Origin: Pedobacter nutrimenti
GTDB lineage: Bacteria > Bacteroidota > Bacteroidia > Sphingobacteriales > Sphingobacteriaceae
Assembly (NCBI RefSeq): GCF_003208655.1
Contig: NZ_QKLU01000011.1
Location: 124,001-188,000, forward strand
DNA: 64,000 nucleotides
Reading direction: 5' to 3'
The position numbers and the translations under genes were made by a program. The notes beneath the pieces were generated by a model that saw only the letters and a list, made by a program, of their open reading frames with translations, ran no database searches and was not told where the DNA came from. Shown here piece after piece: positions 25,801-30,426 of the stretch (its first letter is position 1; the number at the start of each line of letters is the position of its first letter).

Positions 25801-26232
25801 TTAATCTGCTTTCATTCCTGCACTGCACTTTTCGCAGATGCCATAGGCCATTGTATTGATGGCGCTGGCTTTAAAACCCTTTGGCATTTTAATGGCAGGT
25901 ATCAACACATCCAGGCAATAAATCTTTTGACAATTTGTGCAATTAAAATGTACATGTTCGTCATGATGGTGGTGCTCGGAGCAGGCCGGAGAGCAAATGG
26001 CATAGTTTGCCGTTCCATTGAGGTCCATCACGCGGTGGAGAATACCCTTGTCTTCATAAGTGTTGAGGATTCTGTATAAAGTCACCCTGTCAATTTCTTT
26101 ACCCAATTTTTTTTCGAGCTCAGGTTGTGAAATTGCAACAGCATCCATAGCAATCTCTTCCAGCACACGTACCCTTTGTCTGGTGTGTTTGAGACTATGG
26201 TCTTTTAAAATATTTACCGGGTCTATCTTCAT
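25801..26232 (-). CDS. Fur-family transcriptional regulator, probably Zur-like
   Basis: 143-residue metal-sensing repressor. A winged helix (about 8-75; RVTLYRILNTYEDKGILHRV) precedes the dimer/metal domain with the His cluster CSEHHHHDEHVHFNC and two CxxC pairs (C98/C101, C133/C136) that form the structural zinc site. It is the last gene of a four-gene operon with an ABC transporter and a DUF3299-like protein; the operon promoter carries a palindromic box also found before merC and cobW. Gene neighbours (COG0523, DUF3299, His-rich permease) point to zinc rather than iron or peroxide; that is inference. It would autoregulate its own operon. Confidence 0.88.
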   Translation of the reverse strand: MKIDPVNILKDHSLKHTRQRVRVLEEIAMDAVAISQPELEKKLGKEIDRVTLYRILNTYEDKGILHRVMDLNGTANYAICSPACSEHHHHDEHVHFNCTNCQKIYCLDVLIPAIKMPKGFKASAINTMAYGICEKCSAGMKAD

Positions 26233-26240
26233 CTTCTGAT

Positions 26241-26678
26241 CTATATTGATTTTCCATTAACCAGTGAAATTGGAGGATTGTCCATTGCATTGGCCGTACT
26301 TAATTTTAAAGTCCCCCTTATGGTAATGGTTTGGTAGGTAAACTTAACCGGCTCTGCCAGTTCAACCATGACCATAATCGGTACTCCATTCTTACCACAA
26401 AAATAACATTGGTTTATAGGTAACGTTGAAAGCATGAACTTAGTTTGCTTCATGCCATCTTTTATAGGGACAATGTAACCCTCCAGTTCAAATGGTTTAT
26501 TGGCGTGTTTTTTGATTTCAGGGTTAAAGACAGCATACATTTCTTTGTCTTTTATGATTTTGAAATTGACACCGCCAATAACATCCCAGTTTGCGGAAAC
26601 GACCTGGTCATTCGGGTCATGCTGTGCTTTTGCGGCAAACCCGGTAAGAACAAACAGCATTAAGATCAATTGTTTCAT
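26241..26678 (-). CDS. DUF3299-like secreted protein of the zinc-type transporter operon
   Basis: 145 residues with a cleavable signal peptide (about 1-18, ending AKAQ). The core has FELEGYIVPIKDGMKQTKFM followed by CYFCGKNG (C91, C94), then VELAEPVKFTYQTITIRGTL. Layout and the GY-x-x-P start resemble DUF3299 proteins, small periplasmic proteins that accompany FtsX-type ABC transporters in Zur-regulated operons of Vibrio (zrg) and Pseudomonas (PA4063-PA4066). The CxxC could bind metal. It is 25 bases after the permease gene and 8 bases before the Fur-family gene. Family assignment is by eye and tentative. Confidence 0.65.
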   Translation of the reverse strand: MKQLILMLFVLTGFAAKAQHDPNDQVVSANWDVIGGVNFKIIKDKEMYAVFNPEIKKHANKPFELEGYIVPIKDGMKQTKFMLSTLPINQCYFCGKNGVPIMVMVELAEPVKFTYQTITIRGTLKLSTANAMDNPPISLVNGKSI

Positions 26679-26703
26679 CTTTTTTGAGGGTTAAATATTG
26701 GTT

Positions 26704-27918
26704 TTAGTTTTTTGATAAAATTTTAGAAATGTCAGATCTGTAGGCCTGCACAGCAGGGATAACCGCTGCAAATATACCAATCCCAAGGCCGGCAATCAAT
26801 AGATATATTTCATCCTTCAGGAAAATAGTCCCGCTCAATCGTGCCTGACTGCTTTCCTGAAAATGACCAATCAGGCCAAGACAGGCATGCCCAAAAGCAA
26901 TACCAATTACAGTTCCCACTAATGTGAGTAAGAGACCTTCAATAATAACGATCAGAAACAATTTGAAGCGTGAAGCACCTAGGGTTCGCATAATGGCAAG
27001 ATCATATTTTTTCTCTTTCAGGGAATTGTAGAGGTTAACAAAAACACTGATGGCTGCAATCAGCATAATCAATACAGCAAACCATTGTAAGGTTTCTGTG
27101 CCTACGCCAATGAGTGAAAACAGCCGGGTACTTTCCATAGCCGGAGAGGCTGCCTGCATATTGGTCGATTGATTGACCATCCGGGGGAACATTACAACCG
27201 ACATTGGAGAGCGGTATTGGATCAGTAAAGAAGTGATCTCTTTGTCCTGAATTTCCGGATGTTCTTCTTTTTTATCTGTATGTTCATGTTCTTTTTCTTC
27301 GGCAGGGTCATGCATTTTCCAGACACTGGAAATGTTTGTCAGGATCAAATTGTCCGTCACATTCCCCTGGGCTTGTAGAATTCCGCTAACCTTGTAGGCA
27401 TGTGTTTTGTGTACATCAGAGCTTCCTGTCAATCCATGGGCGCCATAAAACCGATCTCCTATTTTAAGATGCTGGGTAGCGGCTACGGTTGCACCAATAG
27501 TGGTTTCAAAGTCTTGCGCCCAAAATTTACCGGATTGCAGACGAAGATCGTAAAGGCGGACAAAGTTGCTGTCGGTGCCCACAATCCGGATGCCGTTGTA
27601 ATTGTCTCCCAAAGCCAGTGGGACCGCACGTTTTACCCATGGGTTAGCGGACAGCTCTTTTGCATCTTTTAAAGGAATGTTTCCGGTGGGAAAATCAATA
27701 TAATAAATGCTGCTCAAAATCAGTTGCAAAGGACTGCCTTTTGCACCGACAACAAGATCAATATCTTTTGAATTTTTATTCAGTTTTTCGCTGATCTGGG
27801 AGGAGCTGAGCAGAAGTATGGTTAAAATGCCCGTACCAAATGCGACAAGCATGATATTCAGAAAAGAGGACAGGGGCTTGGACCGCATGCTTTTCCAGCT
27901 GATTTTTAAAGGACTCAT
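26704..27918 (-). CDS. FtsX/MacB-type ABC transporter permease with His-rich loop
   Basis: 404-residue permease. One transmembrane helix (about 18-40) is followed by a large periplasmic MacB-like domain (about 45-275) and three C-terminal helices of the FtsX domain (about 283-398), with RTLGASRFKLF between them. The periplasmic part contains an acidic, His-rich insertion at about 203-220 (HDPAEEKEHEHTDKKEEH) likely to bind zinc. It overlaps the ATPase gene by 4 bases (ATGA). Similar permeases occur in Zur-regulated operons; whether such systems import metal or move lipoprotein-like cargo is unsettled. Confidence 0.85.
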   Translation of the reverse strand: MSPLKISWKSMRSKPLSSFLNIMLVAFGTGILTILLLSSSQISEKLNKNSKDIDLVVGAKGSPLQLILSSIYYIDFPTGNIPLKDAKELSANPWVKRAVPLALGDNYNGIRIVGTDSNFVRLYDLRLQSGKFWAQDFETTIGATVAATQHLKIGDRFYGAHGLTGSSDVHKTHAYKVSGILQAQGNVTDNLILTNISSVWKMHDPAEEKEHEHTDKKEEHPEIQDKEITSLLIQYRSPMSVVMFPRMVNQSTNMQAASPAMESTRLFSLIGVGTETLQWFAVLIMLIAAISVFVNLYNSLKEKKYDLAIMRTLGASRFKLFLIVIIEGLLLTLVGTVIGIAFGHACLGLIGHFQESSQARLSGTIFLKDEIYLLIAGLGIGIFAAVIPAVQAYRSDISKILSKN

Positions 27919-29100: not shown

Positions 29101-30309
29101 ATGGATAAGAAGATTTTACCAGTTACCGTACTCAGTGGATTTCTGGGGAGCGGTAAAACCACCTTGTTAAACCATATTCTCCACAACAAGGAAAATTTAA
29201 AAGTTGCATTAATTGTCAATGATATGGGAGAGATCAATATTGATGCACGACTGGTTCTGAACGGGAATACACTTTCCAGGACCGAAGAGAAGCTTGTGGA
29301 AATGAGTAATGGCTGTATATGCTGTACCCTTAGAGAAGACCTGGTGGCTGAAGTTGAAAAGCTGGCTAAAGAGAACAGGTTTGATTATTTAATTATTGAA
29401 AGTACGGGTATTTCCGAGCCTGTTCCAGTAGCCCAGACCTTTAATTATACAGATGAGCAACTGGGCATTGATCTTGGAAAGTTCAGCCGACTGGACACCA
29501 TGGTTACGGTAGTAGATTGTTTTAACTTTAAAAGGGACTTCGGGACAAGTGAATTGCTAAAAGACAGAAACTGGACGAGCGATCAGGCAGACCAGCGGAC
29601 CATTGTAAACCTGCTTACAGATCAGATTGAATTTGCCAATGTAATCATTTTAAATAAAACAGATCTGGTAAAAGAGGCAGACCTGAAGCTGATTAAAGCG
29701 GTTATTGCTAAACTAAACCCCTCTGCAAAGCAGATTGAAGCGGTTTTTAGTAAAATAGATCTTAAAGAAGTTTTGAATACAGGGCTGTTTAACTTTGAGG
29801 AAGCCTCGCAGGGGGCAGGATGGATCAGGGAGCTGAATACAGTTCATCAACCGGAAACAGAAGAGTATGGAATCAGCAGCACCGTTTTCAGATCCCCTAA
29901 ACCTTTTCATCCGGAAAGATTGTGGAACTATCTGAATGCAGAGTTTCCATCCAATATTATCCGTACAAAAGGTTTGTTTTGGCTTGCTGCAATGCCAGAT
30001 CAGGCATTGAATTTCTCGCAGGCGGGTGGTTCTTTAAGGATAGAGAATGCCGGGAACTGGTGGAGTGCCATGCAACTTTCCGAAAGATTGCAATATGCAG
30101 ATTATCAACAGAACCGTCAAAGTATTGAAGCCAGATGGGACAAGCGCTTTGGTGACCGGTTAAATGAGTTGGTATTTATTGGTCAGGACTTAAATAAAAA
30201 CCGCCTACAGGAGGAATTAAATGCGTGTTTACTGATGGATACAGAAATCCTGAATTATGAAAAAGGATTGAGGTTTGAAAATCCTTTCGAAAAAGTATTA
30301 CATTATTAA
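29101..30309 (+). CDS. COG0523 (CobW/ZigA-type) metallochaperone GTPase
   Basis: 402-residue G3E-family GTPase. Walker A GFLGSGKTTLLNH (about 13-25), the metal motif GCICCTLRED with C72-x-C74-C75, Walker B-like YLIIESTGISEP, and NKTDLV (guanine specificity) are present. A C-terminal CobW_C domain starts at about 255 and contains KPFHPERLWNYL. COG0523 proteins deliver metal to target enzymes; the Zur-regulated ones bind zinc and serve cells short of it. The Zur-type boxes just before the ATG support that role. Start ATG lies 2 bases after box 3, so the leader is very short. Confidence 0.92.
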   Translation: MDKKILPVTVLSGFLGSGKTTLLNHILHNKENLKVALIVNDMGEINIDARLVLNGNTLSRTEEKLVEMSNGCICCTLREDLVAEVEKLAKENRFDYLIIESTGISEPVPVAQTFNYTDEQLGIDLGKFSRLDTMVTVVDCFNFKRDFGTSELLKDRNWTSDQADQRTIVNLLTDQIEFANVIILNKTDLVKEADLKLIKAVIAKLNPSAKQIEAVFSKIDLKEVLNTGLFNFEEASQGAGWIRELNTVHQPETEEYGISSTVFRSPKPFHPERLWNYLNAEFPSNIIRTKGLFWLAAMPDQALNFSQAGGSLRIENAGNWWSAMQLSERLQYADYQQNRQSIEARWDKRFGDRLNELVFIGQDLNKNRLQEELNACLLMDTEILNYEKGLRFENPFEKVLHY

Positions 30310-30351
30310 ATGCAATATTGTTGCAATTGATAATGTAATACTTTATATTTG
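30309..30351 (+). promoter_or_regulatory. Zur-type box and promoter downstream of the COG0523 gene
   Basis: A perfect TGCAA-TATTG-TTGCA palindrome at 30311-30325 is followed by TATATTTG at 30344-30351, a full -7 match, with TTG at 30321-30323 inside the box. No coding sequence follows on this strand before the T-run at 30416-30426, so the promoter would drive a short untranslated RNA. Confidence 0.6.
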
Positions 30352-30356
30352 ATCTT

Positions 30357-30426
30357 CATTATTTAGTTAAGTGGAAAGCATTTGTAAGGGGACTCATCAG
30401 CCTTTTACATTTGCTTTCTTTTTTAT
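30357..30426 (+). ncRNA. Candidate metal-regulated small RNA (about 65-70 nt)
   Basis: From the inferred start near 30357 the transcript would contain a long hairpin: GAAAGCA (30374-30380) pairs with TGCTTTC (30412-30418) across small internal mismatches, TGTAA (30383-30387) with TTACA (30404-30408), and GG with CC. A T-rich tail follows. It contains no open frame of note. The hairpin may simply be the terminator of the upstream GTPase gene; the separate promoter and operator are what suggest an independent RNA. Confidence 0.4.
30372..30426 (+). terminator. Hairpin plus T-run after the COG0523 gene
   Basis: The same imperfect long stem (about 30373-30418) followed by TTCTTTTTTATTT; it ends at the stop codon of the convergent ABC-F gene. 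It can terminate both the GTPase transcript and the candidate small RNA. Confidence 0.6.

Follow-up and report, generated by a model that had tools for sequence, protein, structure and literature searches.

The subject of this analysis is a 64,000-nucleotide stretch of Pedobacter nutrimenti DNA (the window; contig NZ_QKLU01000011.1, positions 124,001 to 188,000), which carries several copies of the palindrome TGCAA-N5-TTGCA near zinc-linked genes. One copy, the box at position 30311, follows the stop codon of a COG0523 GTPase gene and faces no gene. This box appears, from sequence comparison, to govern a conserved small RNA whose predicted role is to turn off zinc-consuming enzymes when zinc is short. 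We lean toward reading the system as the first zinc-sparing small RNA under a zinc uptake regulator (Zur), in which a 14-nucleotide (nt) complement to start codons would silence an M28 peptidase, an alcohol dehydrogenase, and the phosphatase PafA together, with the same box releasing the genes for a zinc chaperone and a transporter.

In the mechanism that we propose, a Fur-family protein encoded in the window would act as Zur when zinc is plentiful, sitting on the TGCAA-N5-TTGCA boxes and repressing its own ABC/FtsX/DUF3299-like operon, merC, the COG0523 zinc chaperone gene, and an ~70-nt small RNA whose TATATTTG promoter lies at 30344. Once zinc becomes short, the repressor would leave the boxes and the small RNA would be made. 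Its 5′ segment, UUCAUUAUUUAGUU, is predicted to pair with mRNAs for zinc enzymes where these carry AACUAAAUAAUGAA, at the start codon or ahead of it, and this pairing would block translation of the M28 peptidase, a zinc alcohol dehydrogenase, and a PafA-type alkaline phosphatase, sparing zinc. Bacteroidia ribosomes are reported, in the part of the source available, not to recognize Shine-Dalgarno sequences (PMC9976891); pairing over the AUG is therefore a reasonable point of action. The boxes, their link to the regulator, the conservation of the RNA together with its box and promoter, the covariation of its hairpin, and the complementarity that accompanies it are supported by comparison among genomes. 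We infer that zinc is the signal, that the regulator represses, that the RNA is transcribed, and that it inhibits translation.

The predicted small RNA

The box and the element behind it comprise the following features (coordinates are those of the window).

30311 to 30325, unstranded: exact box ahead of the small RNA promoter (motif search)
30344 to 30351, plus strand: TATATTTG, −7 element of the small RNA, 18 nt after the box
30355 to 30426, plus strand: predicted small RNA of ~70 nt (covariance model R1, 88.4 bits, with the sequence itself in the model)
30355 to 30368, plus strand: TTCATTATTTAGTT, invariant unpaired 14-nt segment and proposed pairing region (centroid fold)
30373 to 30424, plus strand: terminator-like hairpin with TCATCA in its loop region, followed by a T-run (fold z-score −5.3)

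The 5′ end at 30355 is placed from the promoter and is accurate to a few nucleotides. A box also lies downstream of the COG0523 gene in seven other named Pedobacter loci. At the P. metabolipauper locus (L158), the box lies between the ABC-F gene and merC, and the RNA is present; tblastn found no COG0523 gene in that locus. After the downstream box, the order in relatives is TATATTTG, the 14-mer TTCATTATTTAGTT, the TCATCA hairpin, and, in most, the T-run. Model R1 was built from eight such sequences, that of the window included, and was searched against 145 genomes of the genus with strict filters that can miss weak copies. Matches at E ≤ 0.1 occur in 18 of the 145 genomes. Thirteen are strong (47.9–102 bits), eight of these being the model's own sequences and five being independent, one of which (G217/L101) had earlier been spotted by eye. 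P. cryoconitis and P. duraquae are among the species with the RNA (L107, L113, L114, and L101). All 13 strong matches have an exact box 17–18 nt before TATATTTG (at L198, which has two overlapping boxes, the upstream one has this spacing), and the 14-mer is invariant in all 13. Among the weaker matches, L212–L215 resemble ordinary terminators, L211 is without a box, and L210/L150 has a box and an altered segment; none of these was counted among the 13.

The hairpin covaries. Double compensatory changes are found in 10 of its 16 pairs, and 93.2% of cells are paired, in an alignment that was fitted to the model and thus favors the structure. Among 500 shuffles, none scored as high on four measures of covariation and one did on a fifth; all slid controls were lower. 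TCATCA is present in all 15 rows of alignment A3. The RNA is patchily distributed on a tree of the permease of the locus, with six changes among named loci rather than one clade (L150, a weaker match with a box, was counted as RNA-bearing). A search of Rfam gave no match above the gathering score in the window and 14 sub-threshold microRNA hairpins over 30286–30433. A small open reading frame (ORF) within the RNA was considered and rejected, as no ATG start was seen and insertions and deletions break every frame on inspection by eye.

Predicted targets of the 14-nt segment

Strong predicted complementarity to zinc-enzyme mRNAs goes with the presence of the RNA. M28 genes were compared across a chosen set of 13 RNA-bearing and 15 RNA-free genomes; 27 of these 28 have an M28 match, and departures from the 14-nt complement were counted in the register of a start codon chosen by script. 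Among the 12 RNA-bearing genomes with a match, six have no departure, four have one, one has two, and one has five. The 15 RNA-free genomes have more: two in one genome, three in three, and four to nine in the remaining 11. The mean duplex energy is −13.5 kcal/mol with the RNA versus −7.3 kcal/mol without it (Mann-Whitney, 8e-5), and none of 1000 shuffled segments fit as well. Three of the four single departures keep a G-U pair. In RNA-bearing genomes the mean pairwise identity of the non-coding site is 81%, compared with 35 and 47% for two upstream stretches and 74% for the coding stretch behind it, and the corresponding values in RNA-free genomes are 41% for the site, 30 and 33% upstream, and 65% in the coding stretch. 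In the RNA-bearing genome G120, the M28 site has no departure and matches over 16 nt, whereas the four M28 genes nearest to it (73–75% identity) belong to RNA-free genomes and have three to nine departures; thus, inheritance alone does not explain the match.

A similar pattern is seen for alcohol dehydrogenase 2. With the RNA (11 genomes), its predicted duplex ranges from −9.9 to −16.1 kcal/mol, versus −3.3 to −8.4 kcal/mol in seven genomes without it. One of 500 shuffled segments gave energies as low, and none of 500 gave the group difference. The site has one extra base in nine of the 11 RNA-bearing genomes, and in G286 the single departure keeps a G-U pair.

A search for CTAAATAATGAA, which is complementary to 12 nt of the segment, gave 60 places (13 of them the RNA itself) in the 13 RNA-bearing genomes, versus 21 for the reversed control. 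Outside the RNA there are 12 exact complements of the whole 14-mer. These lie at the M28 start codon in six genomes, in 5′ regions of PafA-like genes in three, in the 5′ region of alcohol dehydrogenase 2 in one, at the start of a DUF2784 gene in one, and opposite an AcrB-like gene in one (this genome, on the opposite strand; the gene was named by eye). Ten of the 12 overlie the start codons of M28, alcohol dehydrogenase, or PafA genes or begin no more than 94 nt before them. The M28 peptidase and DUF2784 were named by Pfam, the PafA-like phosphatase from its match to structures 5tj3 and 5too, and the zinc alcohol dehydrogenase from YahK (1uuf, “zinc-type alcohol dehydrogenase-like protein”). 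M28 peptidases and PafA are di-zinc enzymes. Other 12-nt matches at the starts of long ORFs (for example, L224, L227, and L243) were each seen once.

Two recurrent matches to CCTAAATAATGAA were not counted as targets. One, in four genomes, lies at the start of a gene for a 297-amino acid (aa) membrane protein (EamA-like, by eye) and overlaps the end of the preceding gene; the other, in six genomes, lies 233–237 nt upstream of a divergent ORF and is without a close downstream gene. At PafA-like genes, the start codons in L280, L287, and L234 carry CTGATGAA, and the RNA of each of these three genomes has the complementary sequence in its TTCATCA hairpin loop. A second pairing site of the RNA at PafA-like start codons is possible.

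Boxes, regulator, and genes of the locus

The other boxes of the window, and the palindrome around the box at 30311, are as follows.

28589 to 28603, unstranded: box before the ABC operon, one mismatch (TAnnTTTG on the minus strand at 28576 and 28605)
29043 to 29057, unstranded: exact box on the MerC side (TATATTTG on the minus strand at 29033)
29072 to 29086, unstranded: exact box covering the COG0523 −7 element (TATATTTG at 29077)
29083 to 29097, unstranded: exact box immediately before the COG0523 start codon (motif search)
30292 to 30344, unstranded: imperfect palindrome of 53 base pairs (bp) with the box at 30311 as its center (24-nt arms, 92% complementary)

The initial annotation had proposed five copies of the palindrome, each next to or over a TAnnTTTG promoter, and both statements hold: four copies are exact (29043, 29072, 29083, and 30311), that at 28589 (TGCAATTTTATGGCA) has one mismatch, and all five have TAnnTTTG within 45 nt, compared with 10% of random positions. 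Its further statement that the window has no sixth intergenic copy is correct apart from a one-mismatch copy at 29061, which belongs to the same cluster; the five other one-mismatch matches fall within open frames of more than 100 codons. With one mismatch allowed, 11 matches are found in the window versus 5.6 expected, a count reached in five of 100 shuffles. The one-mismatch count is weak alone, and the signal is the four exact copies within 1.3 kb. A scan for sigma-70 type promoters showed no enrichment (17 found versus 17.2 in shuffles).

Across the 5.72-Mb genome, the exact pattern occurs at 16 sites and the reversed control pattern at one. Eight of the 16 lie within long ORFs and eight are intergenic or at a gene edge, including the four of the window. 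A refined consensus, WTGCAAYNNNRTTGCAW, has seven exact sites, all intergenic or at a gene edge; with one mismatch allowed, it has 32 sites versus two for the control, a comparison that is partly circular as the consensus was drawn from the same sites. Many of the 25 one-mismatch sites fall inside ORFs. Further exact boxes are found at a second COG0523 gene, a double-box putative lipoprotein gene, a DUF6660-RND efflux operon, and a pair of genes for a second Fur-family protein and a P-type ATPase. Thus, the box is not confined to starvation genes.

Several of these sites merit description in their own right. Boxes lie upstream of two DUF6660-RND efflux operons, one exact and one with a mismatch (G000:C9:65214, L096, and C3:93779, L062), and at C9:85080 (L097) a box lies between the second Fur-family gene (38–42% identical) and the gene for a P-type ATPase with a His-rich N terminus. 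Metal-export genes may thus share the operator. The double box at G000:C4:541306 and 541343 (L088) is upstream of the gene for a 284-aa putative lipoprotein without a Pfam match, a candidate new zinc-starvation protein. At G000:C1:758465 (L098), an exact box lies between the second COG0523 gene and the gene for a 398-aa exported protein. In the window, the boxes at 29083 and 29043 together form a perfect 20-bp inverted repeat, and paired boxes 37–40 bp apart (29038–29102 here) recur 5′ of zigA in L039, L040, L044, L049, L050, L052, and L058, in several loci between divergent zigA and merC; this recurrence suggests a fixed two-site arrangement. A box-centered palindrome is also seen by eye in L041, where it is about as long as the 53-bp one, and in L202, where it is shorter.

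The genes that these boxes accompany are the following.

25801 to 26232, minus strand: Fur-family regulator, candidate Zur, 143 aa, with two CxxC pairs and a His-rich segment (Pfam FUR, 1.6e-07)
26241 to 26678, minus strand: DUF3299-like protein (Pfam DUF3299, E 0.04, 14.5 bits, under the cut-off of 22)
26704 to 27918, minus strand: FtsX/MacB-type permease with a His/Glu-rich loop (Pfam FtsX, 2.1e-16; MacB_PCD, 7.1e-11)
27915 to 28544, minus strand: ABC ATPase (Pfam ABC_tran, 4.7e-32)
28645 to 29028, minus strand: MerC-family membrane protein (Pfam MerC, 4.3e-25)
29101 to 30309, plus strand: COG0523 GTPase, ZigA type (NCBIfam ZigA, 544 bits, cut-off 600)

The start of MerC was taken as the ATG at 29028. 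A longer frame with a TTG start reaches 29076, and if MerC starts there, the box at 29043 and part of that at 29072 fall within its frame. The COG0523 protein carries CobW GTPase and CobW_C domains by Pfam and, being under the NCBIfam equivalog cut-off, is described as ZigA type and not filed as ZigA. A profile built from 11 relatives of the DUF3299-like protein matches no solved structure.

The regulator is tied to the box by comparison of loci. Of 66 named permease loci of Pedobacter relatives, 59 were scored, the seven in which the locus is cut being left out. The ATPase gene is preceded by an exact box, no more than 760 bp away, in 34 of the 39 loci with a Fur gene and in none of the 20 without one (Fisher p 2e-11, a value that overstates the evidence because the loci share ancestry). 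With one mismatch allowed, the counts are 37 of 39 and one of 20. Of 121 family genomes, 22 (this genome among them) have a COG0523 match at E ≤ 1e-100. A box with at most one mismatch lies within ~330 bp upstream of the COG0523 gene in 21 of the 22, exact in 15, again including this one; L048 has none upstream of the gene. Candidate operators are thus found, by sequence comparison, at zinc-homeostasis genes and linked with the regulator gene. The regulon proposed in the initial annotation is supported by comparison in its box, in its regulator gene within the ABC operon, and in its zinc-linked units, and falls short in that the box at 30311 serves none of the units named. The list of those units is likewise sound for the ABC operon, MerC, and COG0523, all zinc-linked, and incomplete in view of the further boxed genes elsewhere in the genome.

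Which metal the regulator senses is less easily read from its sequence. A profile of 10 relatives matches structures named Fur, zinc uptake regulator (4mtd and 2o03), and peroxide regulator, the best solved-structure matches being named Fur, and the NCBIfam scores are 26 bits for Zur (cut-off 167) and 41 bits for Fur (cut-off 146). Invariant Cys/His columns are also seen. Sequence alone does not separate Zur from Fur or PerR for this protein. We take zinc as the metal because the controlled gene set is zinc-linked, and the best reading, which we consider likely, is that the Fur-family protein of 25801–26232 is a Zur that would also repress a zinc-sparing RNA.

Alternative readings and known systems

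A number of observations weigh against a zinc-sparing RNA under Zur. The targets were found by searching for the complement and are to that extent a choice after the fact, and within this genome taken by itself the complement shows no enrichment, with 11 matches at up to one mismatch (including the RNA) versus 10 for the control. The M28 site of this genome has one unpaired position, and three of the 146 start regions examined in the genome pair as well as or better than M28. The 15 RNA-free genomes used for comparison were the head of the no-match list from the R1 search. Pedobacter sp. Hv1 (G255) keeps the RNA and is without the complementary match at M28. Data for alcohol dehydrogenase 2 cover 11 of the 13 RNA-bearing and seven of the 15 RNA-free genomes, with most RNA-bearing rows being near copies or close relatives, and orthology in the RNA-free genomes is uncertain (55–61% identity to paralogue 1). 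Alcohol dehydrogenase 1 was rejected as a conserved target, its match being present only in this genome and absent from 11 other RNA-bearing genomes with a close orthologue. The PafA sites are known only from the exact search, in three genomes, and lie 85–94 nt upstream in two of them. Finally, the occurrence of the box before efflux genes is unexplained by a simple starvation repressor.

Other explanations of the same data can be weighed against these. The locus could be a plain Zur regulon, in which the element at 30311 serves only to terminate two convergent genes, those for COG0523 and ABC-F, and a palindromic terminator has given rise to the box by chance. The box does lie within the 53-bp palindrome, which is followed by a T-rich stretch, and terminator-like hairpins elsewhere resemble the box at one mismatch (C3:162903 and C7:260794, by eye). 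However, most relatives are without a large palindrome around the box (by eye), the exact box stands at a set spacing before TATATTTG and the invariant 14-mer in every strong relative, and the P. metabolipauper locus has the RNA where tblastn found no COG0523 gene; we regard this explanation as very unlikely. Still more improbable, in our judgment, is that some other protein binds the 14-nt element as DNA, both by the RNA promoter and at its targets, with no RNA pairing involved. Operators can be short and AT-rich and lie close to start sites, and the RNA pairing is a prediction. Yet the element overlies M28 start codons and is in the opposite orientation at the targets, three of four single departures at M28 and one at alcohol dehydrogenase 2 (G286) retain G-U pairs, and a covarying hairpin follows the segment.

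It is also conceivable, if distinctly unlikely, that the regulator senses another metal, such as manganese, cobalt, or iron, and that the RNA spares or reroutes that metal. The Fur-family searches leave room for this, as they do not split Zur, Fur, and PerR, the best structures are named Fur, and the NCBIfam Zur cut-off is not reached. The three target families, however, are zinc enzymes, and a ZigA-type COG0523 protein and a cluster like zrg and PA4063–4066 are of kinds reported under Zur in the available parts of three sources (PMC2770081, PMC9817125, and PMC11481552). The last alternative accepts the RNA and changes its effect: it might activate its targets or act mainly on other mRNAs. G255, which has the RNA without the complementary match at M28, carries an exact match at the DUF2784 start codon. 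Pairing over a start codon normally blocks translation initiation, which argues against activation at the sites described here. On the other side, the available text on Rfp18, a small RNA conserved within the genus Flavobacterium, indicates that the mRNAs of two metalloproteases reach their full levels only when it is present (PMC9723704). We consider activation, or action mainly elsewhere, unlikely though worth bearing in mind.

A zinc-sparing RNA under Zur, the reading that we favor, would place the locus beside known RNAs that are controlled by a metal-sensing regulator and adjust the users of that metal: RyhB and its analogues (Fur, iron; FsrA in Bacillus), RsaC (MntR, manganese), s-SodF (Nur, nickel), and NikS (NikR, nickel). 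A 2022 review, in the portion available, lists RyhB, RsaC, s-SodF, and NikS with their regulators, gives “none reported” for Zur and AdcR/ZitR, and expects further metal-sparing small RNAs, zinc included (PMC9294342). A study of cyanobacterial Zur, likewise available in part, describes no evidence for Zur- or zinc-regulated small RNAs (PMC9337993). We found no Zur-controlled small RNA in the literature, which here means mostly non-subscription papers, partly available (including PMC9294342, PMC5007448, PMC9825181, PMC9337993, and PMC3788343), and is not proof. With the same restriction to mostly non-subscription, partly available papers, and again short of proof, no Zur box was found for Bacteroidota (including PMC2770081, PMC6103462, and PMC11960050). 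By word search of the available text, “Bacteroid” is absent from the Zur/COG0523 papers PMC2770081 and PMC6103462, one of which has a Cytophaga row, on UreG, and the accessible part of a paper on Riemerella ZntR treats Zur in general terms only (PMC11960050). Unlike the RyhB-type RNAs, the candidate described here lies behind the box of a Zur-like regulon in Bacteroidota and is predicted to be ~70 nt long, to fold into a single hairpin, and to leave a 5′ segment exposed for pairing with start codons. Rfp18 of Flavobacterium psychrophilum is alike in being a Bacteroidota small RNA linked to metalloprotease expression but belongs to another genus, and the third stem-loop is the part predicted to pair; zinc and Zur go unmentioned in the main text of that paper as available (PMC9723704).

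The regulon itself resembles the Zur regulons of proteobacteria, Firmicutes, and actinobacteria in having a Fur-family regulator, a COG0523 gene, and zinc-related transporter genes but differs in its box, TGCAA-N5-TTGCA, with TAnnTTTG promoters. The ABC ATPase and FtsX/MacB permease pairing of the zrg and PA4063–4066 clusters is present here by Pfam. We take PA4066 to be a DUF3299 protein. The ATPase/permease/DUF3299 set is like the Zur-controlled zrgB, zrgC, and zrgE of Vibrio (PMC9817125) and PA4064–4066 of Pseudomonas aeruginosa (PMC11481552), to judge from the available parts of both sources. Compared with zrgABCDE and PA4063–PA4066, the operon differs in that its four proteins have no Pfam match to DUF2796 (ZrgA), its DUF3299 match is under the Pfam cut-off, and it includes a Fur-family gene. 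In the available text, the Pseudomonas relative is recast as a MacB-type exporter (PMC11481552), and zinc uptake by the ABC operon is therefore not to be assumed.

RNAs serving iron, manganese, and nickel regulators are known, and this locus offers a concrete candidate for zinc, with an operator, a segment for pairing, and families of targets that are consistent from genome to genome. It also provides a candidate zinc box for Bacteroidota and a regulator gene to test. The candidate would be the zinc counterpart of the known iron-saving RNAs, in soil bacteria that are open to testing.

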